Shown here: positions 65 through 43,640 of the stretch, piece by piece | How the letters are laid out: each line of letters starts with the position of its first letter | Numbering within the stretch: the first letter of the stretch is position 1 | Source of the DNA: Bacteroidota bacterium | Lineage (GTDB): Bacteria > Bacteroidota > Bacteroidia > Flavobacteriales > Flavobacteriaceae | Direction of reading: 5' to 3' | Length of the DNA stretch: 64,000 bases | NCBI GenBank assembly: GCA_021793375.1 | Contig: JAJYSY010000004.1 | Coordinates: forward strand, 1 to 64,000 | Position numbers and translations under genes: made by a program | The notes under the pieces: generated by a model | The model's database searches: none | What the model was told of the DNA's origin: nothing | What the model saw: the letters and a program-made list of their open reading frames with translations, nothing else

Positions 65-106
65 ATATTTCTTACAAAAATACACTTTGCAAGTCTAAAG
101 GAACTT

Positions 107-124
107 GAATTCGAATTCGAATTC
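107..124. repeat. Three contiguous GAATTC hexamers
   Basis: GAATTC occurs three times head to tail at 107, 113 and 119. The block lies inside a longer palindrome and directly precedes the dispersed repeat unit at 131. The related stretch 4279-4299 carries similar 'ttgaatt' words before the same unit, so this looks like an expanded edge of that repeat. Confidence 0.85.
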
Positions 125-130
125 AACTTA

Positions 131-266
131 AAAAAATCAGCGATAATCAGCTTAATCCGCGTCATCTGCGTTCCATTTTTCTCCCCATCTCTTCACCTCG
201 TCTTCTCTTCAACTCCCTATCTCGCACTCTCTCCACCTCAAAAACTCCCCAACTCCCCAAATAACC
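131..266. repeat. Dispersed intergenic repeat unit, copy A, with CT-rich tail
   Basis: An approximately 50-bp unit built from 'aatcagcttaatccgcg' and 'tctgcgttc' words (131-181) is followed by a pyrimidine-rich tail of 'ccatctc', 'ccctatctc' and 'actcccc' words. The same unit is found at about 4301, 4537, 4781 and 5017, with the same kind of tail at 4590 and 5070. No open frame or transposase is present. This copy lacks the hairpin-rich core found between paired units at 4290-5081. The rest of the stretch between 64 and 355 holds nothing I recognise. Confidence 0.75.
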
Positions 267-355
267 CTTTCAAAAAAAAGAAAGTATTCAGTTTTTCTTG
301 TGGTAAAACTCCTTTTAAATTATCTTGTGGTTTTTAATTCTTTAATTACTTTTCT

Positions 356-7595: not shown

Positions 7596-9080
7596 CTACT
7601 CTTCAAATTTTTTCAGTTTTTTGGGAACTAATAAAAGTATGGTGAGAAAAGTCAGAATACTGAAAACAATCATTCCATAAAAAATATGTTGATTGGCGAT
7701 ATGCAAAGCTTGTTTGATAAAATCTACAGCTTGTAGCGAAAGCTCAGAGTTTTTTAATTCTTCTAAAACATTTTCTACTTTTTTGGAAACATCCAAATCC
7801 GTTTTATTCAATTCTTTTGCATAAGTGGCATTAAAAATAGCTCCAAAAATAGCTGCTCCCAAACTTTGTCCTAAATATCTGGCAAACTGATTGGTTCCGG
7901 TTACCACGCCGCGTTTATCCCAATCTACCACAGATTGAATTCCCACAATAGTCGGGGTGGAAATCAATCCGAATCCCGCGCCTAAGAAAATCAAATTAAT
8001 TACCAGTAAATATATCGGTTGAGGCCAGGGAATCAATAAAAAACCTATACAAGAAAGCATGACTAAAATCACGCCGATGAGTTCTGTGTTTCTAAATCCT
8101 ATTTTGAGATATAACCTACCCGATAAGGCAGATGCCGTGGGCCAGCCAATACTCATGGAAGTGAGGATCAATCCGGATAAAATCACGTTAAAACCTAAAG
8201 AAGCCTGCATAAAAGTAGGCAAATAAACTTGAGGTCCCATCATGGTAATTCCCAATCCGACTACTGCTAAATTTGAACCTAAAAAAGTTCTGTTGGTCAA
8301 TACCCATCCCGGTAAAATTGGAGATTTCGCCCGACGTTCCACAAAAATAGAAACGGCTAACATCAATACAATCAAGAAAAATAAAACTGCACTTTGCCAA
8401 GATAACCAAGCCCAACTTTGTCCGCCGTTGAGCAAGAAAACAATCAGACTTACCAAAAATCCGGAAATACTTAAAGCACCCCAATAATCGATATAAGCTT
8501 TTTGTTTGGTGATTTTTTCTTTTAAAAACATTCCAATCAAAACCATTGCAATGATTCCCAAAGGAATATTGATGATAAAAATCCATCTCCAATTGATATA
8601 TTCTGCCAAACTCCCACCGATAACCGGTCCTAAAAGTCCGGAAACACCCCAAACACTGGAAAGCCAACCTTGGATTTTTGCGCGTTCTTCAATGGTATAA
8701 ATATCTCCGGCAATGGTTGCCGCAATAGCCATAATAGCTCCTCCGCCAATTCCTTGAATCCCTCTGAAAGCAATTAAAGAATAAATATCCCAAGCTGCAG
8801 CAGAGGTGGCAGAACCCAATAAGAAAACTCCGATTCCGAAAAGTAAAATCTTTTTCCGCCCATACAAATCTGCCAATTTTCCGTAAAGCGGAATAGTGGC
8901 AGTTTGTGTTAATAAATAAATCGAAAAAACCCAGGAGAAAATTTTAAACCCACCAATATCTGCTACGATTTCAGGAATTACCGTAGAGATTACCGCGATA
9001 TCCATAGCTGCTAAAAACATGGTCAGCATTAAAGCTGCTAAAATCCAGTTTCTTTTCAGTTCAGGTTGAGAGTTTGTCAT
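7596..9080 (-). CDS. MFS drug/solute exporter, DHA2 (14-TM) type
   Basis: Inner-membrane proton antiporter of the EmrB/QacA branch. Its 494 residues hold about 14 hydrophobic helices. The N-terminal MFS signature GKLADLYGRKK lies in the loop after TM2 (near 68-78), and the antiporter-type motif in TM5 reads WGVSGLLGPVIGG (near 144). AAMDIAVISTVIPEI in TM1 matches the D1 motif region of drug:H+ antiporters. No EmrA-like adaptor or TolC gene is next to it, so tripartite export is not indicated. It is a single-gene unit on the minus strand with its own promoter at 9101-9132 and a shared terminator at 7542. The substrate cannot be inferred. Confidence 0.92.
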   Translation of the reverse strand: MTNSQPELKRNWILAALMLTMFLAAMDIAVISTVIPEIVADIGGFKIFSWVFSIYLLTQTATIPLYGKLADLYGRKKILLFGIGVFLLGSATSAAAWDIYSLIAFRGIQGIGGGAIMAIAATIAGDIYTIEERAKIQGWLSSVWGVSGLLGPVIGGSLAEYINWRWIFIINIPLGIIAMVLIGMFLKEKITKQKAYIDYWGALSISGFLVSLIVFLLNGGQSWAWLSWQSAVLFFLIVLMLAVSIFVERRAKSPILPGWVLTNRTFLGSNLAVVGLGITMMGPQVYLPTFMQASLGFNVILSGLILTSMSIGWPTASALSGRLYLKIGFRNTELIGVILVMLSCIGFLLIPWPQPIYLLVINLIFLGAGFGLISTPTIVGIQSVVDWDKRGVVTGTNQFARYLGQSLGAAIFGAIFNATYAKELNKTDLDVSKKVENVLEELKNSELSLQAVDFIKQALHIANQHIFYGMIVFSILTFLTILLLVPKKLKKFEE

Positions 9081-9100
9081 GGAAATAGAAAAATAATGGG

Positions 9101-9132
9101 CAAAAATACCGGAAATTTTAAGGATAAGACAA
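9101..9132 (-). promoter_or_regulatory. Predicted Bacteroidota promoter for the MFS gene
   Basis: Read on the minus strand: TTG (9132-9130), a 21-bp spacer, then TATTTTTG (9108-9101), a match to the TAnnTTTG -7 consensus. It lies 20 bp upstream of the MFS start codon. Confidence 0.6.
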
Positions 9133-9255
9133 GCTTTAACGAAAGAAGAAAAATTCCGAATTTTAAATTAATTGCGGATAGAGATGTGTAAATTTGTTGA
9201 TTTTTAAAGTTAACCTACAAAAGCATTATAGTTTTATATATTTTTGGCTGATTTT

Positions 9256-10354
9256 ATGATGAAAAAAATAGTTTTTCTGCTTTTTTTGTTTCCTGTGTTG
9301 GTTTTTAGTCAAGAAATAAAACCGCAATATACTTTTGATATTGATTATACTTATGGAAGTATTTTGCCGCACAGCAAAAAAATATATCACCTGATTTCGC
9401 ATCATCCGGAAGGGATTTTTGTAGCAGCCAATAAAAAAACTTTTGGCGAAAAAGAATGGGAATCCAGGTTGAATTATCCGGATTATGGAATGACTTTTCA
9501 TTATCAAAACAATAAAAACGAAACCTTAGGAGATTTATACGGTTTATATTTACACTATAATTTCTACTTTTTTCAAAGGAATTTACAATTTAGAATAGGT
9601 CAGGGAATTGCTTACAGTACAAATCCTTATCACAAACACAAGAATTACAGAAACCTTGCCTACGGATTGAATTTTATGCCGGCAACTTTTTTTATGTTTT
9701 CTTATCAAAAAGAAAATATCTGGGAAGGCTTGGGGTTAAATGCAGGGGTGTATTTAATTCATCATTCCAATGCAAAAATCCGCACGCCGAATACCAGTAC
9801 AAATACGGTGGGGGGCAAAGTTGGGAATTCATTATGCTTTAGATCATCAGCACAAACGAGAATATATTCCCAAACAAGAAAAAGATTCTGCTTTTTTTGA
9901 ACCAATTCACCTGAATTTTACGCTGAGAACCGGAGTGCATGAAAGTCATATTATTGGCAGCGGACGTTATCCGTTTTACAATATATCGGTTTATGCAGAT
10001 AAAAAAATCAGTCCGTCCAGTGGTTTTCAAGTAGGAGTGGATTTGTTGTTGTCGCGGATGAGAAAAAGAGAAATCAAAACAATGGGAGAAGCATTTCCGG
10101 AAAAAGATATCAATCCCGAAGCAGATTACAAAAGAGTGGGAGCTTTTGTTGGATATGAATTGTATATTAATAAATTGTCTTTTGAACCTCAGTTAGGCTA
10201 TTTTATTTACAATAAGTACGGAGAAGATAAAGCGATTTATCAGCGATTAGGTTTGAAATATTATTTGCATGAAAACTTTTTTACCGGATTTGGTTTACTT
10301 TCTCAATCCACCAAAGCAGAAGCTTTAGAAATTACTTTTGGCGTAAGATTATGA
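9256..10354 (+). pseudogene. PagL-like acyloxyacyl hydrolase, frameshifted
   Basis: Outer-membrane lipid A 3-O-deacylase family. The first frame (from ATG 9256; an upstream TTG at 9244 is less likely) has a signal peptide ending LVFSQ and the PagL active-site block H-H-S-N (about 169-172) followed by RTPN. Near residue 186 the frame goes out of register and stops at 9900. The downstream frame continues the beta-barrel (KLGIHYALDHQ to ITFGVRL) and stops at 10354. Removing one G from the six-G run at 9810-9815 joins the two parts into 365 codons reading NTVGAKLGIHY. The gene is therefore a recent frameshift, a slippage-controlled (phase-variable) gene, or a sequencing error. Its stop overlaps the next start (ATGA), which suggests it was translationally coupled to the GIN lipoprotein. 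Confidence 0.82.
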
Positions 10355-11100
10355 AAAGAAAATGGATTTTTATTTTAGCTGTTTTTTGGCTGTTCAGCAG
10401 TTGTGATACAGATTCCGGAGTGGATTGTTTTAAAAAACAAGGAAGAATAATTACAGATAGAGCTGAGGTAGAAGAATTTTCTAAAATCAGTATTTCCAAA
10501 GGAATTGAACTTTATATCAAACAAGCAGAAGAATATAAAGTCAGGGTAGAAGCGGGAAAAAATTTTATAGATGATATAAAGTTTTTTGTAGAAGATGGAG
10601 AATTATTTATAAAAGATAATAGCAATTGCCAGATGTTGAGAAATTATCATCCTGCTAAAGTTTATGTTTCCACGCCAAAATTGGAAAATATTTATTCTTC
10701 TTCTCAATATAATATCTCTTCAGAAGGCGTGCTGAAGTTTCCAAAATTGCAATTACAATCCGGACTTGTGAGCGAAACCCCTTCAGGGATTTATAACTTA
10801 CAAATCGAAAACGAAGAATTGAAAATTCAAGATAATGTTTCTGCTGTTTATCAAATTCAAGGGAAAACCAATAATTTGGAAGTTTGGTTTTGGGGACAAA
10901 ATGGAAGGTTTGAAGGCGAAAACCTAAAAGCTAAAGAAATTCAAGTCTATCATAGAAGCGCAAATGATATGTTTGTTTATCCTTTAAATAAAATCAGTGG
11001 AACAATTCGATTAACCGGAAATGTGGTGTTAAAAAATATTCCATCTGAAATTGAAGTGGAGGAATTATCTACCGGAAAATTGATTTTTCCTGAAGAATAA
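10351..11100 (+). CDS. DUF2807 'head GIN' domain lipoprotein
   Basis: 249 residues. The signal peptide ends in a lipobox (FSSCDTD), giving a lipid-anchored protein. Residues about 40-235 form the repetitive beta-strand pattern of the DUF2807 putative autotransporter-adhesin head domain, starting with the usual EVEEFSKISISKGIELYI. The molecular function of this domain is not established. The start overlaps the stop of the broken PagL-like gene by four bases, and this pairing suggests they work together at the outer membrane, but that is inference. A second DUF2807 protein is at 31056. Confidence 0.85.
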   Translation: MKRKWIFILAVFWLFSSCDTDSGVDCFKKQGRIITDRAEVEEFSKISISKGIELYIKQAEEYKVRVEAGKNFIDDIKFFVEDGELFIKDNSNCQMLRNYHPAKVYVSTPKLENIYSSSQYNISSEGVLKFPKLQLQSGLVSETPSGIYNLQIENEELKIQDNVSAVYQIQGKTNNLEVWFWGQNGRFEGENLKAKEIQVYHRSANDMFVYPLNKISGTIRLTGNVVLKNIPSEIEVEELSTGKLIFPEE

Positions 11101-34989: not shown

Positions 34990-35060
34990 GGTACCGTGGC
35001 CGAGTGGCTAGGCACTGGTCTGCAAAACCATGAACACCGGTTCGAATCCGGTCGGTACCT
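34990..35060 (+). tRNA. tRNA-Cys (GCA)
   Basis: 71-nt cloverleaf: acceptor GGTACCG pairs with CGGTACC, a D-arm with GCC...GGC, anticodon loop CTGCAAA with anticodon GCA and U33 present, T-arm ACCGG-TTCGAAT-CCGGT and discriminator T73, as expected for cysteine. CCA is not encoded. The 3' 12 bases plus one base beyond are the attachment site of the integrative element that follows, and the tRNA is left intact by the insertion. Confidence 0.95.
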
Positions 35061-35061
35061 C
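35049..35061. other. attL core
   Basis: CGGTCGGTACCTC, the last bases of tRNA-Cys plus one, repeated exactly at 40882-40894. Left junction of the element. Confidence 0.85.
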
Positions 35062-35095
35062 AAATAACATTGATAATCAGGCGTTTACATAAATC

Positions 35096-35115
35096 TTTGC
35101 GAACTATTTGCGAAC
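35096..35115. other. Left arm-type integrase sites (two)
   Basis: TTTGCGAAC at 35096-35104 and 35107-35115, 11 bp apart and in the same orientation. The same word occurs three times with the same 11-bp period at the right end. They lie 35-54 bp inside attL, where arm-binding sites of tyrosine integrases are expected. Confidence 0.65.
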
Positions 35116-35160
35116 GGTTTTATTTTTAGCCTATTTTAGAAGGATTCTTTCAAAATAAAT

Positions 35161-35241
35161 TATCTTTGTCTAAAGCTGTTTATTTAGCTTTTATAATTAC
35201 TAATAAGGACGTGGATTTGCTTTTTCTGCGTCCTTTTTTTT
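35161..35241 (+). ncRNA. Candidate small RNA with terminator near the left end
   Basis: A TATCTTTG box (35161-35168) is followed by a short hairpin AAAGCT/AGCTTT (35172-35191) and a terminator: AAGGACG (35205-35211) pairs with CGTCCTT (35229-35235), then a T run to 35241. No open frame lies between. A -33 element is not convincing, so the promoter is weakly supported and the terminator is the firmer part. Confidence 0.4.
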
Positions 35242-35326
35242 CATCTAAATAAATAATGTTTTTAAAATATGAGGTTTTATCAAGCTTCTATTTTCTGCAC
35301 TATATTGCACTATAATTTTACACACT

Positions 35327-35448
35327 CCTTTTATAGCTCGAAAAACAAAGTTTCTAAATGTTAAGCTTTGTCGGGTTTTCTTTCCTTTTATAGCTCGAGA
35401 AACGGTTTAAATATCCGACTTATAACGGCGTATGTTTTTATAACTCGA
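35327..35448. repeat. Three copies of TTTTATAGCTCGA-type repeat
   Basis: CTTTTATAGCTCGA occurs at about 35328, CTTTTATAGCTCGA again at about 35385, and a variant TTTTATAACTCGA at about 35436. They precede the iteron cluster and could be a second class of binding site. A separate short pair, TGCACTATA, occurs at 35296 and 35306. Confidence 0.7.
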
Positions 35449-35464
35449 TGAATAAACTCTTATT

Positions 35465-35768
35465 CTCGGTAACGTTATTTGCGTTCTCGGTAACCTCGGT
35501 AACTCAAGTGACCGAGAATAACGGTGTAACTGCTTGATTATCAATGTAAGTTACCCAAGTTACCGAGAAATTGAAGTAATAAACGTATTTTATAAAACAT
35601 TTTTTGAATTATTCTTCTTCTCATTGCAAAAAACTTTTTTCTTATGCGTGCGTTACTTGATATTCTCGGTAACCTCGGTAACGAATCTTTGTAAATGCGT
35701 ATCAATAGGGGGTTTACGAATGAAAATAAATAAAAATTCTCGGTAACTGCGTGACCCAAATTACCGAG
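35465..35768. other. Iteron cluster, candidate replication origin of the element
   Basis: The word CTCGGTAAC or its complement GTTACCGAG occurs nine times (two copies with one mismatch): forward at 35465, 35486, 35495, 35665, 35674 and 35739, reverse at 35508, 35559 and 35760. They form two groups (35465-35567 and 35665-35768) around an AT-rich stretch (35570-35655). Reverse copies share a longer 17-base form ending ACCGAGAA. Iterons in two sets around an AT-rich core directly downstream of a replicase gene is the SaPI/PICI origin layout. The 70-codon open frame across it is not credible as a gene. Confidence 0.75.
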
Positions 35769-35796
35769 AATCCTTCCATTTAATTAAAATGGGTTA

Positions 35797-38289
35797 TTAT
35801 ATTATAGAAAAATCATCATCTTTAAACCTCCACTTCTTAGAATTTTCAATATAAGTCAAATTCAAATTGTGATATTTCGCATAAACTTCAATATGTTTAC
35901 GAATATTCATCCGGTGGAATAATTTCTCAAAGCGTAACAATCCTAAATCATACTTCTTTTTAAAATCAGTAACGTTGAAACCTTCCGGAAGCTCTGTTTT
36001 TAATTCATCAAAAATCCGTTTCATTTCGTTTTCCTTAATCTCATCCGGAAAGTAAGCTCGATAATTATCTTCTGTTTTATCGTATTGAATTTGAACAACT
36101 CCATTTTTAAGAAACTCTTGAATACATTCAACTATAAAACAATAGAATTGATTCCATTCTTCTTCATTCCAATCATTAAAGAAGTTTTGTTTATAGTATT
36201 CATTAGGCTTATTGTTTTCATTCCAAAAATTAGAAAATTTATATTCTCGAAATCTTCGGTTTGTTGAGGTATTTTCTTCGCTGTATCTTACTGCAAAATT
36301 TGTTGAAAGAACAAACTTCGGTGACCAAGCAAACGGAATTTGTTCAGCTTTAGCTCCTTTCCTTTCCGGTGTGATTCCTCCGGTAATCTCGGAATAAAAA
36401 GCATTATAATTGAAGTTAGCTGGCACATCATCAAGAATATAAACATCGTGCTTTTTCTCTAAATCTGCGAATTTGTGTCGATAACCAATATCAAACGAAT
36501 CTCCTTGTTTAAAAAGACAAACAGAAATAAATTCAAGTGCTTTTTGAATTAAGGATTTTCCTCGTCCTCCTTTTCTTGAATTGTTATCGGCTCCTTCATC
36601 GGATAAGATTATCGCATAAGCTTCGGAAGGGTTTTTATAGTTACTGCATAAATAACCAATCATTGAAGCGAAAGCAAGAATTTTATCGACTTCTTCCTCC
36701 GTTAACTCGTTTTCATTATCTAAATCTCTTCCAATTACTGCCTTACAAATAAAGTCTTGAAACGTGCTTTTTGCGGATTCTTTTTCATCATAGTTAAAGG
36801 AATGCTTTAAAGATTCATTCTCAACAAAGAATTTAATTTCTTTATCAGAATAAGGTATCATTTGAACATCATCTTTTGTGATTTTAGCAACTCCATTTTT
36901 AAAAGGAATAAATACTTCGTCTTTAGTATCTCGATGAAGATTCAAAGGTTCTCCTTGCATTAACATAAAGCCGGAACGAACTTTATGCGAATCCGTTGCG
37001 ATTATGTTTTCCATTGATTCCGTATCAAATTCGTTTATCTCGTTCCGTAAAAAATTCATTGTATCGGTAGAATGATTGAAAGGCTTAACGACTTTATTTT
37101 CATTCTTAATGACTGTTATTTCATCTTTACCTTCTTCTGTCAAACGAATGAATCCTTCTTGTTCAAAAAACTTTCTATATCGTGCCGGCTCGGTGCTGTA
37201 ATCATCACTATAAAAATTAATAGTTGGATTGACGACTTCCGGAATTGTCCAAGTCTTTTCTCTAAATTCAACAATACCAAACTTTAAGTTTTCGCATTTT
37301 ATATTTGCGTCAATAGTAGCGGAATCGTGAAGGCGAACATAATTTTTTAGCTTATTAGCTTCAACAAACTTTTTAATATACTCCTTTTCAATCTTCGCTA
37401 AATCTTCTTGCATCTTACCTTTATTATTGAATCGTTCTTCTGTTATAACCTCATCAACTCTATCTCCATAAATTGGAAATAATTGTTTTCGGACTTTCTC
37501 AATCGTATAACCTTTAACGCCCTTATGAATGTTCAAAAGCATATTAAATTTAGTCTTATCAATATGTTTGTAAACATCAAAAGGATCAATTCCCAATTCT
37601 AAGAAAATAAAGGTCGGATTTGCTTGTTTTATATCATATTCTTTGATTTTAAAAGGTAAGCTTTGTCGCATAACACTCGGTAAGTTTGTTAGCGGATTAT
37701 ATTCTCGGCTTTTAGTTTCCTTGATATGAAATAAGGAATCAAACTCATTAGAATAAAGTCCGTTAACCTTAAGCATCATAAATAAAACATAAGTTTCCCA
37801 ACGTGAACGACTAAAGAAATTTATTGGTTCTCTACCTTCTTTATCGGCTCGTTTTTGCTCCTTATCTATTTTGGAATAATATTCTTTCAGTTTATTTATA
37901 TCGTGCCGGAAATACTTTAAATTTAGCTCCTTACCGTTGAAATACGAATCAACAAACTTGAAATAATCATTCTTTTTAAGTGGATTCTTATTAATGTAGC
38001 GAACGTATTCAATTAAGCATTTATCAAAAGGTTTATCTATAAAAGAAATGCAATCAACTGCATCTCTAAAATTGAAATTCCTTTTTCTGCTTTTAGATTC
38101 AACTCTCATTCTTTGAATGAAGTCATCTTTCCAATCCTTAATAAATTTACTTATTGAATCAAGTGAATAACTTGGCACCAATGAAGCGTTTTTTTTATTT
38201 TCGTAATAGCCTTTAGGTGGATATTTATTCTCTTCCGGTTGATGAACTCTTACTAACTGTGGAAGATTATTTTTCTTATTTGCTTTCAT
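35797..38289 (-). CDS. Replicase: PolA-like polymerase segment plus SF3-type helicase
   Basis: 830 residues. The C-terminal half is an SF3-like AAA+ helicase: Walker A GGRGKS (near 574-579), Walker B YILDD (near 617-621) and a sensor STN (near 662-664), followed by a winged-helix-like tail. The N-terminal half has spaced motifs resembling the compact PolA-superfamily polymerases of mobile elements: YDIKQANPTFI with Asp near 219 (motif A-like), an R-K-x-LFPIYG stretch near 267 (motif B-like) and RLHDSATI with His-Asp near 321 (motif C-like). The helicase call is firm; the polymerase call is inference from motif order. The start overlaps the upstream winged-helix gene by 14 bp. The iteron cluster lies just after its stop, so it is the likely initiator of element replication. 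Confidence 0.75.
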   Translation of the reverse strand: MKANKKNNLPQLVRVHQPEENKYPPKGYYENKKNASLVPSYSLDSISKFIKDWKDDFIQRMRVESKSRKRNFNFRDAVDCISFIDKPFDKCLIEYVRYINKNPLKKNDYFKFVDSYFNGKELNLKYFRHDINKLKEYYSKIDKEQKRADKEGREPINFFSRSRWETYVLFMMLKVNGLYSNEFDSLFHIKETKSREYNPLTNLPSVMRQSLPFKIKEYDIKQANPTFIFLELGIDPFDVYKHIDKTKFNMLLNIHKGVKGYTIEKVRKQLFPIYGDRVDEVITEERFNNKGKMQEDLAKIEKEYIKKFVEANKLKNYVRLHDSATIDANIKCENLKFGIVEFREKTWTIPEVVNPTINFYSDDYSTEPARYRKFFEQEGFIRLTEEGKDEITVIKNENKVVKPFNHSTDTMNFLRNEINEFDTESMENIIATDSHKVRSGFMLMQGEPLNLHRDTKDEVFIPFKNGVAKITKDDVQMIPYSDKEIKFFVENESLKHSFNYDEKESAKSTFQDFICKAVIGRDLDNENELTEEEVDKILAFASMIGYLCSNYKNPSEAYAIILSDEGADNNSRKGGRGKSLIQKALEFISVCLFKQGDSFDIGYRHKFADLEKKHDVYILDDVPANFNYNAFYSEITGGITPERKGAKAEQIPFAWSPKFVLSTNFAVRYSEENTSTNRRFREYKFSNFWNENNKPNEYYKQNFFNDWNEEEWNQFYCFIVECIQEFLKNGVVQIQYDKTEDNYRAYFPDEIKENEMKRIFDELKTELPEGFNVTDFKKKYDLGLLRFEKLFHRMNIRKHIEVYAKYHNLNLTYIENSKKWRFKDDDFSII

Positions 38290-38599
38290 CTTCTAAAGGT
38301 TTTTGAGGTTCAACAAATAAATCTTTATCAGTAGTTAAGAATTGAGTATTCTTATAGCTGGTAACCGGACAAGCTCCAAAATATAAAACTTGTATTCTAT
38401 TCGATTTTTTCAGCTTTGCAACGTATCTGCAAATATTAGAACGCATTATTCCGGTTTCTTCTGAAACCTCTTTCATTGTCTTTGGTCGTTCAAAAAAGGA
38501 TTTGAAAATAACTTTTATCTGCCCTTTCTTTTTCGTATCTTTAGCCTTACGCTTTCCCTCATTAAAAGCATTGTTAAGGCTGTGAATTTTATTTTTCAT
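38276..38599 (-). CDS. Small winged-helix DNA-binding protein
   Basis: 107 residues. After a basic N-terminus (KRKAKDTKKKG) a winged helix-turn-helix spans about 25-80: FFERPKTMKEVSEETGIMRSN as helices 1-3 and NICRYVAKLKKSNRIQVLYFG as recognition helix and wing. The last 25 residues are acidic and likely disordered. It lies 8 bp after the HTH gene and overlaps the replicase start by 14 bp, so it belongs to the xis-rep operon. It may regulate the operon or help the replicase bind iterons. Confidence 0.7.
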   Translation of the reverse strand: MKNKIHSLNNAFNEGKRKAKDTKKKGQIKVIFKSFFERPKTMKEVSEETGIMRSNICRYVAKLKKSNRIQVLYFGACPVTSYKNTQFLTTDKDLFVEPQKPLEDESK

Positions 38600-38607
38600 A
38601 GCCTTAT

Positions 38608-38898
38608 TTATTTTTTATGATTAATACTTTTAATTGAGTTTAGGATTTCGGAACGTTTGTAATAAATTCGATTACTAATTCCATAGCTTTTAAGCTTTCC
38701 TTTTTTAGTCCAACGGTGTAAGGTCGCTAAATTGATTTGAAGTAAATCAGCGGTTTCTTTTCGTGTCAAAAGGTCGGTTTGCTCCTCCGAATTAGTCCGA
38801 TTAGAAAATGGCAAAGAATCTATTTTGCTCTCTAACGCTTCAATCTTTTCAAATAAAACTTGAAACGGATTTTCAAATGTAGGTGTAGTCTTATTCAT
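38608..38898 (-). CDS. Helix-turn-helix (HTH_17, excisionase-like) protein
   Basis: 96 residues from ATG 38898; a TTG two codons upstream is an alternative. The N-terminal half includes a short predicted coiled coil (FEKIEALESKIDSL). The C-terminal part is a MerR/excisionase-type HTH: LLTRKETADLLQINLATLHR and WTKKGKLKSYGISNRIYYKRSEI. The start codon overlaps the end of the 58-residue xis-like gene (ATGAATAA), so translation is coupled. It could be a second excisionase or a transcription regulator. Confidence 0.75.
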   Translation of the reverse strand: MNKTTPTFENPFQVLFEKIEALESKIDSLPFSNRTNSEEQTDLLTRKETADLLQINLATLHRWTKKGKLKSYGISNRIYYKRSEILNSIKSINHKK

Positions 38899-39067
38899 TT
38901 TCAACGGGTTTTAAAGCGTTAATAACCTCATCTTTTCGATAAAAGACCGAACCTCCAATTTTGTATTTTTTGAGGATTTTTGAATTTGTCCATTTGCGAA
39001 CTGTTTCTCGACTTACAGAAAAAAGCTCGCAAACATCTTTTGTTGTGATGAATTTTACATCTGCCAT
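38891..39067 (-). CDS. Excisionase-like HTH protein (58 aa)
   Basis: 58 residues, ATG 39067 to TAA 38891, almost entirely an HTH_17/AlpA-type domain: FITTKDVCELFSVSRETVR and KWTNSKILKKYKIGGSVFYR. This is the size and form of Xis and AlpA proteins of integrative elements. It is the first gene after the leader that starts near 39292, and is followed with an 8-bp overlap by a related HTH gene. The two are probably paralogues (shared W-T-x-x-x-x-L-K-x-Y pattern). Confidence 0.8.
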   Translation of the reverse strand: MADVKFITTKDVCELFSVSRETVRKWTNSKILKKYKIGGSVFYRKDEVINALKPVENE

Positions 39068-39174
39068 AATATTGGGTTTTATGGCTCACACTTAGCGGAA
39101 AGCTACAAATCCAATGCTTTACTTTAATTTGTTAAACTTTTCTTAATTGTCGCTTAACTTATTATTGTTCTTCA

Positions 39175-39286
39175 TAGATTTGTAAATGAAATGCCGAGAA
39201 AACATTTCTTCCGGTTATAAATGTAAGCCGGTTAATAAAAGATTGCATAAAAAGCCTGCATATTGGCGTATGTAGGCTTTTATTTA
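39175..39286 (+). ncRNA. Candidate antisense RNA to the xis-rep leader
   Basis: A plus-strand -7 box TAGATTTG (39175-39182) is followed about 70 bp later by a strong terminator: AAAAGCCTGCATA (39250-39262) pairs with TATGTAGGCTTTT (39269-39281), then TATTT. The predicted RNA is about 100 nt (39188-39286) with an internal CCGG/CCGG hairpin. It is fully complementary to the leader of the leftward xis-rep transcript. The -33 element is weak (TTA). The palindrome may also terminate the int transcript, which ends at 39364. Within 39068-39363 no protein gene is seen. Confidence 0.45.
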
Positions 39287-39297
39287 TGCGTCTTTAG

Positions 39298-39326
39298 CAA
39301 AGATATGTCAAGTTATAGCAATACAA
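39298..39326 (-). promoter_or_regulatory. Predicted promoter of the xis-rep operon
   Basis: On the minus strand: TTG (39326-39324), 18-bp spacer, TATCTTTG (39305-39298). A transcript from about 39292 would carry a leader of about 225 nt before the xis ATG, including the 39250-39281 palindrome. Confidence 0.55.
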
Positions 39327-39363
39327 GAATTTTTATCATAAAATTTATTATCATCGCATCTTT

Positions 39364-40695
39364 TTATCGTGCAACTCTCTCATTTTTAATCACTTCCATT
39401 GTTTTAATCTTCGGCAACTTTTCAATATAGTTAAGCATTTGCATTGATACATCTTGTTCGCTTTTGCCTATGTATTTTAAAAATGTTGATTCTTTTTTGT
39501 GTCCGGTTATGCTTTTTAATACGACTGTGGGAATTGTTCCATAAAAATTAGAAGCAAACGAACGTCTGCAAACGTGGGTTCCTATTAGCTTCCATTTAGG
39601 AAATGTTCCTTTAGTAGTTATGCCGTGTTTAGATTCTTTTACTCGTCCGACTGTAGGCTCGTTAATTTCTGCAATCCTGCAAACTTCTTTAAAATATTCT
39701 CTTAACTTGGTTGAAGATAACTTATAAGGAAATCCGGATTTTATAATCTTTTCGGCTTCCGGTAGAATTGGAATTGTTACATTCTTTCCTGTTTTCTGTT
39801 GCCTTATTTGAAATGCTTTTTTGCCTTGAATAACTTTTATTTTCTTTGGCGACAATCTTAATAAGTCTGAAACTCGTTGACCAACGTAACATCCTAAAAT
39901 AAGCCATTTACGTGCGTTTTCCAAGTAGTTTGAATCAAGGTCGGCTTCTTCTATCTTCTTTAATTCCTCAAAGCTTAAATAAATAATTTCGTCCGGCTCC
40001 TTGCTTTCAGAAATCACTTTAATATCGGAAGGGTTAATATTGATTTGAACGTTCTTAATTCCGTTTAAAATAGATTTTAAGTTTGCTAATTGCTTTCCAA
40101 TATAGTTATGTGAATACTTCTTACTGAATAACCAATCTTCAAAATCTGAAATTGTTTCTAAACTAATGTTTGTAACTTTTATTTGCATTCCGTTGTAAGC
40201 TTCGTCTTGAAAAGATTCTATAATGTTTTTAAATTGTTTTATTCCTTTTATTCGTCCTTTACTCAATCCAATTTTATATTTTCCTCCTCTTATTGGTATT
40301 TTCTTGTTTGGCGCATCGTCAATTGCTTTTTGTATTTGATAAGTGAAGTAATGTTCTTCTTTTTCTTCTTGATTAGTGTATTTGTCTAAAACTGACTTAA
40401 ACCAATTAGAATTTATTTCAATTCCTTTGCTGAAATCTTTATTGTATTGACTAAGGATTGAATCGTGAAGTTTATCAAGTTTACTTTTTAACTTTTTAGA
40501 ATCTACATCAATCGGTCGAGTTAAATCAATCTTCCGTTTATATTTTCCGTGTTTGTCTTTTCTTGTTGATTTTTTTGTTCTCCAATGTTCCGGGTTAGTA
40601 GAATATCCGGTTTTTCGTCTGAACTTCTTATTTCTTGAAACGGTAAATTCTGAATAAATGTTTTTACCAATAAGACTGAATCGAATTGTCGCCAT
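39364..40695 (-). CDS. Tyrosine recombinase / integrase
   Basis: Site-specific recombinase that would integrate and excise the element at tRNA-Cys. I start at ATG 40695 (443 residues, MATIRFSLIGKN), the usual start in Bacteroidota integrases; the longer frame to 40734 begins inside an arm site and upstream of the probable transcription start. An N-terminal arm-binding part (about 1-95) is followed by a SAM-like core-binding domain (about 95-200) and the catalytic domain with Arg in GCYVGQRVSD, Lys in QQKTGKNV, H-x-x-R in HVCRRSFASN, a GH in SITGHKKEST and the Tyr nucleophile in FLKYIGKSE. All catalytic residues are present. Confidence 0.92.
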   Translation of the reverse strand: MATIRFSLIGKNIYSEFTVSRNKKFRRKTGYSTNPEHWRTKKSTRKDKHGKYKRKIDLTRPIDVDSKKLKSKLDKLHDSILSQYNKDFSKGIEINSNWFKSVLDKYTNQEEKEEHYFTYQIQKAIDDAPNKKIPIRGGKYKIGLSKGRIKGIKQFKNIIESFQDEAYNGMQIKVTNISLETISDFEDWLFSKKYSHNYIGKQLANLKSILNGIKNVQININPSDIKVISESKEPDEIIYLSFEELKKIEEADLDSNYLENARKWLILGCYVGQRVSDLLRLSPKKIKVIQGKKAFQIRQQKTGKNVTIPILPEAEKIIKSGFPYKLSSTKLREYFKEVCRIAEINEPTVGRVKESKHGITTKGTFPKWKLIGTHVCRRSFASNFYGTIPTVVLKSITGHKKESTFLKYIGKSEQDVSMQMLNYIEKLPKIKTMEVIKNERVAR

Positions 40696-40721
40696 TATAG
40701 TTGCTTTTATAATTACTGTTA

Positions 40722-40752
40722 CAAAGATAATCATTTGCGAACCTTTTGCGAA
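40722..40752 (-). promoter_or_regulatory. Predicted int promoter overlapping arm sites
   Basis: Minus-strand TATCTTTG (40729-40722) lies 26 bp before the int ATG. At -33 spacing the sequence TTCGC falls inside the second arm repeat. Integrase or Xis bound to the arm sites could therefore block int transcription. Confidence 0.45.
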
Positions 40753-40764
40753 CTATTTGCGAAC
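40734..40764. other. Right arm-type integrase sites (three)
   Basis: TTTGCGAAC at 40734-40742, 40745-40753 and 40756-40764, all in one orientation with an exact 11-bp period. The same word with the same period is at the left end. Confidence 0.65.
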
Positions 40765-40881
40765 CAAATGTATTTTAATGTAATTTAAAGCAATCTATAA
40801 TAAAGGTGTAAAAATGCAACTTATTGAATATCAGTATAAATAAAGTGTTTCCTTATTGCATAAAGTGTAAGGGTTGAGGTT

Positions 40882-40894
40882 CGGTCGGTACCTC
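40882..40894. other. attR core
   Basis: CGGTCGGTACCTC repeats the 3' end of tRNA-Cys. The bases just upstream match the tRNA T-arm poorly, so this is only the crossover remnant. Confidence 0.85.
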
Positions 40895-41054: not shown

Positions 41055-42740
41055 ATGATGATTGATACTTTTCCAACAGATATTGAAATTGCACAGCAAG
41101 CAAAAATAAAACCCATCACAGAAATTGCAGAAACCTTAGGGATTTCTGCAAAGATTTTAGAACCTTATGGGCATTATAAAGCAAAATTACCTTTGAGTTT
41201 AATCGATGCTGAAGCGATAGAAAAAAGCAAATTAATCTTGGTGACTTCCATAAATCCAACTCCGGCGGGAGAAGGAAAAACCACGGTTAGTATTGGTTTA
41301 ACAGATGCTTTAAAAAGAATTGGCAAAAAAACCGCGGCAGTTTTACGCGAACCTTCCTTAGGTCCTGTTTTTGGCATAAAAGGAGGGGCTGCAGGTGGCG
41401 GGTATTCTCAAGTAATTCCGATGGAAGATATCAATTTGCATTTTACCGGAGATTTTCATGCAATTGAAGCGGCAAACAATTTATTGGCAGCAGCTATAGA
41501 TAATAACCTGCACAGCAAAACGCGTTCTTTAAATTTAGATCCGAAAAATATTCTGTGGAAAAGAACAATGGATATGAACGATCGTAGTTTAAGACAAATT
41601 ATGATTGGTTTGGGAGGAAAAGCAAACGGTTTGACCCGCGAAGCAGGATTTAATATTACTCCGGCTTCAGAAATTATGGCTATTCTTTGTTTAGCAGAGA
41701 ACTTTACAGATTTAAAAGAGCGTTTAGATAGTATCTACATCGGAAATAATATAGAGGGAGATCCGGTTTTTGCCAAAGATTTAAAAGTGACCGGAGCGAT
41801 GGCAATTCTTTTGAAAGATGCGATTAAACCCAATTTAGTGCAAACCTTAGAAGGAGCTCCGGTTTTATTGCACGGTGGACCTTTTGCCAGTATTGCGCAG
41901 GGAACAAATTCTGTTTTGGCCACAAAAATGGGAATGTCTTTAGCGGATTATGTGGTTACAGAAGCAGGATTTGGAGCAGATTTGGGAGCGGAGAAATTCT
42001 TTCATATCAAATGCAGACCTTCAGGACTAAAACCTTCGGCCAGTGTGGTGGTGGTTACCGTGAGGGCATTGAGACATCATGGAGGAGCACCTAAAGAAGA
42101 ATATAATATTCCAAGTTTGGAAAGAGTGAAAATCGGTTTTGCCAATGCGGCAAAACATATAGAAAATATGATTCAGTTTGGTGTTCCCCCGGTGGTGGCC
42201 ATCAACAGTTTTCCGACGGATAGTCAAGAAGAAATAGATTTCATCATACAAGCTTGTGAAGAATTAGGCGTAAAAGCAGTAGTCAGCAAAGGATTTTCAG
42301 AAGGAGGATCAGGAAGTGAAGCTTTGGCAGAAGCAGTGGTTGAAGCAATAGAAAGTAAATCGACTTCTTTTAAATTATTGTATGATTTAAACCAAAGTAT
42401 AAAAGAAAAAATAAATATCATAGCTACAAAAGTTTATGGAGCAGCCGGAGTAAATTATACCACAAAAGCACAAAAACAACTGCGTAGTCTTCAGCAAAAT
42501 GGATTTGACAGTTTAGCGATTTGTATGGTTAAAACACCAAACTCTTTAAGCGATGACACGAAAGTCTTGGCAAGACCTGAAGATTTTACCATAACTGTTC
42601 GAGAGTTTGAAGTAGCTGCAGGAGCCGGATTTATTTTACCTATTTTAGGAAATACTTTAAGGATGCCGGGTCTGCCTTCTGTTCCGGCAGCAGAACATAT
42701 GGATATTGACGAAAACGGGGTAATAACAGGATTGAGTTAA
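41055..42740 (+). CDS. fhs: Formate--tetrahydrofolate ligase
   Basis: ATP-dependent synthesis of 10-formyl-THF from formate and THF in the cytoplasm, 561 residues. The P-loop-like nucleotide site is TPAGEGKTTVSIGL (near 67-80), preceded by LVTSINP. LREPSLGPVFGIKGGAAGGGYSQVIPMEDINLHF follows as separate conserved blocks, and FGADLGAEKFF, KPSASVVVVTVRAL and EHMDIDENG near the end complete the family pattern. The start could be either of two adjacent ATGs. It lies downstream of the integrative element; folB on the other side is also a folate gene, so the element may split a folate-linked neighbourhood. Confidence 0.96.
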   Translation: MMIDTFPTDIEIAQQAKIKPITEIAETLGISAKILEPYGHYKAKLPLSLIDAEAIEKSKLILVTSINPTPAGEGKTTVSIGLTDALKRIGKKTAAVLREPSLGPVFGIKGGAAGGGYSQVIPMEDINLHFTGDFHAIEAANNLLAAAIDNNLHSKTRSLNLDPKNILWKRTMDMNDRSLRQIMIGLGGKANGLTREAGFNITPASEIMAILCLAENFTDLKERLDSIYIGNNIEGDPVFAKDLKVTGAMAILLKDAIKPNLVQTLEGAPVLLHGGPFASIAQGTNSVLATKMGMSLADYVVTEAGFGADLGAEKFFHIKCRPSGLKPSASVVVVTVRALRHHGGAPKEEYNIPSLERVKIGFANAAKHIENMIQFGVPPVVAINSFPTDSQEEIDFIIQACEELGVKAVVSKGFSEGGSGSEALAEAVVEAIESKSTSFKLLYDLNQSIKEKINIIATKVYGAAGVNYTTKAQKQLRSLQQNGFDSLAICMVKTPNSLSDDTKVLARPEDFTITVREFEVAAGAGFILPILGNTLRMPGLPSVPAAEHMDIDENGVITGLS

Positions 42741-42795
42741 ACTCATTTTTTGTTGTGTGGTAAAATCCTTATATTAGCGATTCTTAAAAAATAGT

Positions 42796-42868
42796 GGTAC
42801 TGTGGCCGAGTCTGGTTAGGCAATGATCCGCAAGATCATTTACGGTGGTTCAAATCCACCTGGTACCT
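42796..42868 (+). tRNA. tRNA-Cys-like gene with C33
   Basis: 73-nt cloverleaf: acceptor GGTACTG with TGGTACC (two G-U pairs at the inner end), D-arm GCC...GGC with GG in the loop, anticodon stem ATGAT/ATCAT, loop CCGCAAG, T-arm GGTGG-TTCAAAT-CCACC (perfect) and discriminator T. The anticodon reads GCA (Cys), but position 33 is C where U is nearly universal, and the 32/38 pair is C-G. It is either a decaying paralogue of the gene at 34990 or an unusual functional tRNA. A weak TATATTAG box lies at 42770-42777. Confidence 0.7.
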
Positions 42869-42917
42869 CTTTCTTTATTTAATAAAAGTAAGTTAATAAC
42901 GAAAAAATTATGTTGAT

Positions 42918-43640
42918 TTAAGAAGGATTACTTTTAGATTTTAAATCCGCAAACTGACTTACTTCCGGCATTACATTTTCCACTTTTTGTTGCATTTTTT
43001 CAACGCGAGAAGGAAAAATTCCGCGTGCGATTAAAACCAATCCACACATCGCAATCAATAGACTTACCACGCGTTTTAATTTGTAGATTATATTTGGCGT
43101 GAGTTTGTGGTTTAATTTTTTTGCAAGAATTATTTTTAAAATATCGACCAAGAAATAAGTGATTAAAATCACGGTAAAAAAGGTAAAAAGCCGACTGGGT
43201 TCCATATCCATAGAAGGTCCAAAAGCGATGATTAATCCCAGCCAAAACCCTAAAACACCAATATTGACAAAATTCAATAAAAAACCTTTGGTGAAATAAC
43301 CCAACCAATCTCCTTTTTTTACTTTTTGAAATTCTTTATCTTCTTGATGAGGAATTCTCTTTTTTTGTTTTAAAAAAGTAATCACCCCGTAGGTGATTAA
43401 AATACTCCCTCCAAAAATGAATAATCCGGGTTCGTCTTTAATGCTTTTCAATAGTTTGTTTGTACTGAAATAAGCGATTAAAAGAAAGGCTATATCTGCT
43501 AAAATAACACCAATGTCAAAAATGATTGCTGCGCGAACGCCTTTGATAGCAGCTGTTTCTAAAAGGACAAAAAATACTGGTCCAAAAAGAAAAGCTAAGA
43601 CAATTCCCATCGGGATTGCAGCAAAAATGTCTTGAATCAT
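42918..43640 (-). CDS. LysE-family transporter
   Basis: 240 residues with about six TM helices. The start MIQDIFAAIPMGIVLAFLFGPVFFVLLETA is close to the LysE/RhtB pattern, with GPVFF replacing the common GP-x-x. Hydrophobic stretches follow at about 37-60, 72-90, 118-140, 150-172 and 190-208, and a charged cytoplasmic loop near 93-112 (KQKKRIPHQEDKE). The family exports amino acids or small cations; substrate unknown. It is a single minus-strand gene. Confidence 0.85.
   Translation of the reverse strand: MIQDIFAAIPMGIVLAFLFGPVFFVLLETAAIKGVRAAIIFDIGVILADIAFLLIAYFSTNKLLKSIKDEPGLFIFGGSILITYGVITFLKQKKRIPHQEDKEFQKVKKGDWLGYFTKGFLLNFVNIGVLGFWLGLIIAFGPSMDMEPSRLFTFFTVILITYFLVDILKIILAKKLNHKLTPNIIYKLKRVVSLLIAMCGLVLIARGIFPSRVEKMQQKVENVMPEVSQFADLKSKSNPS

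Follow-up and report, generated by a model that had tools for sequence, protein, structure and literature searches.

How can a mobile element spread if its genes serve integration and replication? This question is raised by a 5.8-kb element in a stretch of 64,000 nucleotides (the window, positions 1 to 64,000 of contig JAJYSY010000004.1) from a bacterium of the Flavobacteriaceae (Bacteroidota; NCBI GenBank assembly GCA_021793375.1). The element occupies positions 35049-40894, is flanked by a 13-bp exact repeat of the 3' end of a tRNA-Cys gene, and contains five intact genes, all on the minus strand, for an integrase, two HTH_17 proteins, a winged-helix protein, and a replication protein (Rep). 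It is a real, intact, minimal integrative element; its status as a satellite is proposed by analogy. At a rough probability of 0.55, it is an intact minimal integrative mobile element of Flavobacteriaceae whose likeliest way of spreading is packaging in flavobacterial phage particles, in the manner of the phage-inducible chromosomal minimalist islands (PICMI). To our knowledge, phage satellites are known mainly from Proteobacteria and Firmicutes, and an element of this size, equipped for integration and replication, raises the question whether minimal satellites occur far outside Vibrio. Its replicase resembles that of giant-virus satellites, which raises the further question whether a fusion of a TV-Pol and a helicase can prime and copy DNA alone. 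A search of open-access titles and abstracts, with subscription literature and the large satellite survey outside its scope, yielded no description of satellites in Bacteroidota or flavobacteria.

Table 1. Features of the element and its target site in the window, with the insertion sites of three relatives (aa, amino acids; HTH, helix-turn-helix; SF3, superfamily 3)
Feature	Position	Strand	Remarks
tRNA-Cys (GCA)	34990..35061	+	Target gene, whole; ARAGORN
attL core CGGTCGGTACCTC, 13 bp	35049..35061		Equals tRNA-Cys end; exact match to 40882-40894
Left TTTGCGAAC pair	35096..35115		11-bp spacing; predicted integrase/excisionase arm sites
Hairpin with T-run, just within left end	35205..35241	+	Possible terminator, by fold; absent from consensus scan list
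Iteron array	35463..35770		CGGTAAC repeats as TTCTCGGTAACCTCGGTAAC and complement, 3' of rep; predicted replication origin
rep, 830 aa	35797..38289	-	Helical N-terminus, polymerase core, helicase
Putative family-A (TV-Pol-like) polymerase core of Rep	residues ~98-349		R195, D219, K245, H321-D322
Putative D5/SF3-like helicase of Rep	residues ~450-731		Walker A 574-579, Walker B 617-622
Winged-helix-like protein, 107 aa	38276..38599	-	Overlaps rep start; weak HTH matches
HTH_17 protein with N-terminal extension, 98 aa	38608..38904	-	AlpA-like position; PF12728 43.2 bits (cut-off 27)
HTH_17 excisionase-like protein, 58 aa	38891..39067	-	PF12728 47.3 bits (cut-off 27); TIGR01764 32.1 bits (cut-off 28.8)
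Tyrosine integrase, 456 aa as listed	39364..40734	-	PHROG integrase 1.5e-22; PF13102 above cut-off
Right TTTGCGAAC triplet	40734..40764		11-bp spacing; predicted arm sites
attR core CGGTCGGTACCTC, 13 bp	40882..40894		Exact repeat
Mariniflexile relative	tmRNA		14-bp repeat
Kriegella relative (L026)	tRNA-Arg		48-bp repeat
Psychroflexus relative (L027)	tRNA-Ala		15-bp repeat

Among the genes listed in Table 1, two neighbouring pairs share 14 bp each (38891-38904 and 38276-38289). The integrase scores 26.1 bits against PF00589, slightly under the cut-off of 27.1, and keeps all of the motifs R, K, HxxR, H, and Y, which we take to be the catalytic residues. Comparison with relatives suggests that it probably starts at 40692 (MATIRF...). 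Both HTH proteins weakly match families of small terminases, excisionases, and defence regulators, and a CARF model weakly matches the winged-helix protein (4.3e-4); these are read as shared HTH folds. The 58-aa protein matches phrog_57, annotated as 'terminase small subunit', with 5.2e-6; since excisionase families score better, this match is likewise read as a shared HTH. No relaxase, mobilization protein, large terminase, capsid, or cargo was found among the five proteins with Pfam, PHROGs, NCBIfam, and PADLOC, and no terminase small subunit gene (terS) or other packaging-interference gene was recognised with the first three libraries. The original prediction of a tRNA-Cys element at this position, with five genes and iterons but without conjugation, packaging, or cargo genes, thus holds: the attachment (att) cores are exact, the genes are intact, and the iteron count is reached by none of 500 shuffles.

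Two sets of repeats mark the element's ends and its presumable origin. TTTGCGAAC has six exact copies in the whole window, all of them within the element, against a mean of 0.63 and a maximum of two in shuffled sequences. Two copies lie near the left end and three near the right end, and the sixth is situated within the gene of the 58-aa HTH protein. Most simply, these repeats would be the arm sites of the integrase and the excisionase. The iterons stand 3' of rep on either side of an AT-rich stretch (35580-35660, 75% A+T). Counted on either strand, the 8-mer CTCGGTAA occurs eight times in 357 bp, which 0 of 500 dinucleotide shuffles reached (mean shuffle maximum 1.65). Among the five other elements with a whole rep, iterons are clear in L025 and L026 (both 0/500 shuffles) and in L027 (2/500), and their sequence differs in each of the three. 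An imperfect inverted repeat of 28 bp (82%), 35062-35089 with 35525-35552, joins the left end and the iteron region.

Rep matches no family in Pfam, even with E values up to 1, or in NCBIfam, and a PDB sequence search gave nothing relevant; phrog_28855, of unknown function, matches residues 368-740 in the helicase half (2.4e-34). The domain assignment therefore comes from motifs and fold. R195, D219, K245, H321, and D322 are invariant in all 12 sequences that share the N-terminal half of Rep. The AlphaFold model of the polymerase domain (mean predicted local distance difference test score, pLDDT, 86) runs through helices, a hairpin, a strand with D219, helices, a hairpin with H321-D322, and a strand. 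The hairpin at 190-197, with the invariant R195, precedes the palm as the beta-hairpin of TV-Pol does, and D219 and D322, the TV-Pol palm aspartates, are located on or beside the expected strands. In the RxxxK motif of the fingers, the lysine K245 is present in 12 of 12 sequences and the arginine in five (L021, L022, and L043-L045). In a second-look structural alignment of the domain model, family-A polymerases make up every one of the 50 rows listed, of which one bears the name T7 replisome, with Z scores of 6.3-7.2 over 165-250 aligned residues; with the full-length Rep model, 46 of 50 rows are family-A polymerases. Against viral structure models, the polymerase domain reaches an E value of 1.3e-3 at best; phage DNA polymerase I, the replication protein of the Zamilon virophage, and an origin-binding protein of a Pyramimonas virus are among the named rows. 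Residues 450-731 align with E5 of monkeypox virus (MPXV) at Z 6.0 over 112 residues. The full-length model is poor over 550-687, so the helicase half is little tested by fold; we take its Walker and SF3 motifs to have the roles assigned to such motifs. Taken together, the model is consistent, at middling strength, with a fusion of a TV-Pol-like minimal family-A polymerase core and a D5-like helicase, the arrangement of Sputnik V13. As the Z scores are middling and the Foldseek E values weak, the family-A assignment rests on fold and motifs together.

Full-length relatives of this Rep were found in 3 of 396 other genomes of the family; counting the element's own genome, any match to Rep, mostly to the helicase half, occurs in 22 of 397 family genomes and the polymerase core alone in 6 of 299, in one of them across 48 residues only. 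An alignment search matched 12 of 395 genomes of the order and 28 of 395 of the phylum, with the element's own Rep as the only match over the whole length. A pattern scan of one genome per species (84,980 species) yielded six relatives. These elements, from Mariniflexile sp. AS56, Kriegella sp. EG-1, Psychroflexus planctonicus, the Flavobacteriaceae UBA3611 and UBA1903, and a 3-kb Flavobacterium contig, have Reps 43-48% identical to that of the window. In all six, int is followed by a gene for 297-617 aa, then by an HTH gene, by another small gene in four of them, and by rep, with int incomplete in the 3-kb contig and the HTH genes of L026, L028, L029, and L030 assigned by eye. The winged-helix protein is 47% identical to its counterpart in L027 and 44% to that of the viral contig L137 (see below). 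In the closest pair of relatives, L028 and L030, the ratio of nonsynonymous to synonymous substitutions (dN/dS) is about 0.15 for rep and 0.06 for int, which indicates that both genes are under purifying selection there. These two UBA elements adjoin a gene read as mnmE and have no att repeats of at least 12 bp beside it. Of the three cargo genes searched in the Mariniflexile element (L025), type I restriction and AbiD genes stand between rep and the tmRNA gene, and type I restriction genes were recognised by eye in L028, L030, and L109.

A second group shares the integrase and the gene order. In L106 and L107, both from Flavobacteriaceae, the integrase is 43% and 40% identical to that of the element, and the replication protein of 800 aa has a polymerase core 24-26% identical to that of Rep and no match to a helicase. 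Elements with such an 800-aa Rep, a polymerase core, and no recognised helicase were noted at L106 5695-10713, L107 5188-10171, and L108 5612-8618, with int seen in L106 and L107. By the iteron statistic, L107 is significant (1/500 shuffles); L106 (150/500) and L108 (500/500) are not. No att repeats were found in L106 and L107 (at least 13 bp) or in L109 (at least 11 bp), and L108 has only two 9-bp matches. Extra partial att copies occur by the ends of the elements in Psychroflexus (L027 5897, 6041, and 13438) and Kriegella (L026 6087, 6564, 6738, and 14363), which suggests repeated insertion at the same tRNA gene, tRNA-Ala and tRNA-Arg, respectively.

The original prediction had suggested looking for the same set of int, rep, and iterons at tRNA-Cys in other flavobacteria. 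Int and rep do recur, in six relatives with conserved gene order; the sites found there are tmRNA, tRNA-Arg, and tRNA-Ala. A search with folB and tRNA-Cys as query matched 57 of 60 relatives (own genome included), and 29 tRNA-Cys loci from other genomes were compared; neither int nor rep of the element was found within 1.5 kb of any of them (tblastn, E 1e-5). folB is present at 21 of the 29 loci, and the eight loci without it may be other tRNA-Cys genes. A lysE-like gene, which in the window (42918-43640) is separated from the target tRNA-Cys by the element, fhs, and another tRNA-Cys, follows the tRNA gene within about 0.1 kb at five of the 29 loci and at 0.6 kb at a sixth. The genus is represented by two genomes, with same-species comparison outside the sample. 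In the other one, G022 (85% complete), folB and tRNA-Cys are both present, and neither int nor rep of the element lies within 1.5 kb; fhs has no match there, so that the comparison covers the left flank only. Hence, across genomes of other species, the element is missing from the matching site elsewhere in the family. Within this comparison, neither fixed presence nor the lack of an empty site nor a degenerate integrase, which the original prediction had named as signs against a mobile element, was seen. The host genome is a draft of 101 contigs (88.9% complete) with a single match to Rep.

A link to satellites comes from viral contigs. An integrase-alignment scan yielded 44 loci, and four whole contigs were examined gene by gene. 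L137 (IMGVR_UViG_3300000405_001831; 6,925 bp) encodes an integrase, a 238-aa protein, an HTH_17 protein above the Pfam cut-off, a winged-helix protein, an AAA protein, a DUF6371 protein, and a terminase small subunit (TerS). L132 (IMGVR_UViG_3300012942_000311; 8,791 bp) encodes an integrase, a 344-aa protein, a weak HTH_17 protein below the cut-off, an AAA helicase-like protein, a DUF6371 protein whose gene is divided between the contig ends, a head protease, a major capsid protein, and TerS. Both contigs are terminally redundant, by a 99-bp overlap with one N in L137 and a 123-bp repeat in L132, and are therefore circular or concatemeric. No large terminase subunit (TerL), portal, or tail protein was matched among the open reading frames (ORFs) searched, which were nine of nine (Pfam) and six of nine (PHROGs) in L137 and, in L132, all except one ORF searched with Pfam only and one 80-aa ORF outside all libraries. 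TerS without TerL is a hallmark of the phage-inducible chromosomal islands (PICI). The TerS of L137 has weak matches only, in 3 of 249 family genomes. L168 carries TerS and TerL, with a related integrase and then similar small genes upstream of them, and L140 is phage-like by eye. The integration and control module of the element thus appears to have relatives both in likely satellites and in temperate phages, and the TerS-bearing contigs with a related module raise the probability of a satellite life in this lineage without proving it. As observations in their own right, L132 resembles a very small capsid-encoding satellite and L137 is PICI-like. The tailed-phage contig L104 (IMGVR_UViG_3300008450_000610, with TerL and portal) encodes at 7955-10576 an 873-aa protein in which a part that resembles an SF2 helicase by eye is joined to a Rep-type polymerase core; similar proteins are encoded at L109 10414-13128 and L110 9083-11716, and the proteins of L104 and L044 have no match among phage records. 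An 800-aa Rep without helicase was not found in viral contigs.

Which known system does the element resemble most? In the Staphylococcus aureus pathogenicity islands (SaPI), the iteron origin lies at the 3' end of rep. The element shares with PICI and SaPI this layout, tRNA-type integration, and small regulators. It differs from them in having no match to a PICI-type primase or Rep family and no terS or other packaging gene (Pfam, PHROGs, and NCBIfam), and membership in PICI/SaPI is rejected on these grounds. Of the satellite-like nature that had been predicted, the site-specific insertion, the lack of cargo, the iterons 3' of rep, and the intact integrase stand, and the assignment to PICI/SaPI does not.

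In its anatomy, the element appears to be a better match to PICMI, a proven Vibrio phage satellite whose DNA enters the particles of a virulent phage as a concatemer of eight copies (PMC10803314). As far as the accessible part of that report goes, PICMI115 measures 6,110 bp and lacks capsid-remodelling genes; its six genes include int, iolg, alpA, up1, and prim, and deletion of alpA, int, iolg, or prim strongly lowers the number of its particles. Measured against that account, both are about 6 kb in size, share an integrase, an AlpA-type HTH protein, a small gene, and a replication gene in the same order, and lack capsid-remodelling and packaging genes. PF12728, which two genes of the element match, is one of the two Pfam models (PF05930 and PF12728) of the published PICMI search, and three relatives (L025, L028, and L030) have a gene that overlaps int, like iolg in PICMI. 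In the element itself, the 58-aa excisionase-like gene occupies the iolg position; its Rep, in contrast to the PICMI primase, has no DUF3987 or DUF5906 (no Pfam family with E up to 1), and it resides at tRNA-Cys in a flavobacterium instead of at fis. As replication gene and site differ, the element is called PICMI-like and not PICMI.

The replication module points to other systems. The fusion of TV-Pol and D5 helicase in Sputnik V13, one of several TV-Pol architectures, was described and predicted to prime and polymerise by Iyer, Abhiman and Aravind (PMC2579912). Rep resembles it in its minimal family-A-like core, its C-terminal D5-like helicase, and the neighbourhood of a lambda-type integrase; the element differs from Sputnik and other virophages by the lack of capsid genes among its five proteins, and sequence profiles link Rep significantly neither to PolA nor to the TV-Pol carrier Ma-LMM01. 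In the staphylococcal cassette chromosome (SCC), CCPol with its partner MP carries out primer-independent synthesis, according to the experiments in the accessible parts of two reports (PMC10061031, PMC7581432). By comparison with these accounts, no gene for an OB-fold partner was identified in the element; its winged-helix gene upstream of a helicase gene is reminiscent of LP1413, a winged-helix protein of some SCC elements that binds single-stranded DNA. The elements of PMC12324425 have a putative archaeal host, as far as the accessible text of that report states.

In the preferred reading, the integrase, bound to the TTTGCGAAC arm sites, would insert the element at the end of tRNA-Cys, and together with the 58-aa HTH_17 protein it would excise it as a circle. 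The 98-aa HTH_17 protein and the winged-helix protein would regulate the operon; alternatively, the latter may bind single-stranded DNA for Rep. The circle would be replicated from the iteron origin by Rep, which is predicted to bind its own iterons, to unwind DNA via its D5-like helicase, and to prime and extend via its minimal family-A core. Since no recognised transfer genes are encoded, a helper would have to carry the element, and anatomy and relatives make PICMI-like packaging of concatemers in flavobacterial phage particles the likeliest route. We propose more tentatively, as a possibility short of an even chance, that the element belongs to a Bacteroidota family of phage satellites with a one-protein virophage-type replisome (family-A core, D5 helicase, and own iterons). 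Such a family would parallel the Sputnik-like virophages in bacteria, reduced to integration and replication and equipped with restriction systems when it bears cargo.

Several results weigh against the preferred reading, concerning either the way of life of the element or its Rep. No helper, particle, excised circle, or mobility of the element was seen, and a scan of the draft genome with the terminase profile phrog_2 revealed no resident prophage or helper. Its one weak match there (E 2.9e-7) is presumably PhoH; the same profile has matches in 11 of 14 control genomes as well. Among 205 candidate stretches of viral contigs there is no full-length relative of Rep, and no match to Rep among phage or plasmid records spans 80% of the protein. 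The iteron statistic falls short of significance in two of the five relatives with a whole rep (L028, 115/500 shuffles; L030, 208/500). As for the polymerase, the seven sequences of the helicase-fused clade lack the RxxxK arginine, all fold scores lie below Z 8, the second-look alignment was confined to chains ranked by Foldseek, and Foldseek itself gave a best E of 0.06 against the PDB. Profile comparison by hhalign with 11 PolA proteins gave E 0.087 over 27 columns, compared with 0.098 for an unrelated lysE control, and the 197 ORFs of Ma-LMM01, a published TV-Pol carrier, contain no profile match (best E 0.17).

Transfer might also be conjugative, if the element were an integrative mobilizable element without its own relaxase whose hidden origin of transfer (oriT) is used in trans by the relaxase of a conjugative element. 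Mobilisable Bacteroides elements such as NBU1 are known from the accessible part of one account (PMC11389934), and the gene-free left end of about 0.7 kb could hide an oriT. However, no relaxase or mobilization match exists in the five proteins of the element (its relatives were not searched for relaxases), and the related modules found outside genomes sit in viral contigs with TerS, so this route appears unlikely. Phages could likewise move the element as passive cargo of generalised or lateral transduction, with Rep serving for stability or copy number in the cell. In the accessible part of a report on Pseudomonas (PMC12595487), islands at tmRNA with integrase and defence genes and without transfer genes are transduced, namely by a jumbo phage. 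Compared with that description, the element has an integrase, direct repeats, and no transfer genes in common with these islands, and its Mariniflexile relative resides at tmRNA with type I restriction and AbiD genes. Integrase and defence genes are named as the content of those islands, whereas the replication module is the main content of the element, and a dedicated replicase with its own iterons would exceed the needs of passive transduction; this explanation is accordingly judged quite improbable.

Two further explanations dispense with regular transfer. TV-Pol genes beside lambda-type integrases, resolvases, or transposases were interpreted by Iyer et al. (2008) as parts of replicative transposons (PMC2579912), and Rep might in the same sense copy the element during movement within the cell, with transfer between cells being rare and accidental. 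The single Rep match per genome seen here speaks against it, and integration at the ends of tRNA and tmRNA genes and an excisionase-like gene would better fit excision and replication of a circle, which leaves the transposon with little probability. Finally, the element might be a decaying prophage remnant, left with the early genes of a temperate phage after loss of the late ones; in favour of this, viral contig L168 has a related integrase and similar small genes ahead of its terminase genes (TerS, TerL). Decay of this kind is hard to credit at all when att cores are exact, the gene order is kept in other genera, three relatives stand at resolved other sites, and purifying selection acts on rep and int in the two most similar relatives; with five of five genes open, a decayed remnant was rejected.

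A few observations concern the surroundings of the insertion site. Between the element and the lysE-like gene, the stretch 41055-42869 contains fhs and a second, different tRNA-Cys. In the genome G032 (L081), two adjacent tRNA-Cys genes are located downstream of folB. A T-tailed hairpin directly 3' of tRNA-Cys is clear in eight of nine relatives, and the window has one to the right of attR. The insertion may have separated tRNA-Cys from its terminator, but the left end of the element is also able to form hairpins, and neither site is listed by the consensus terminator scan.

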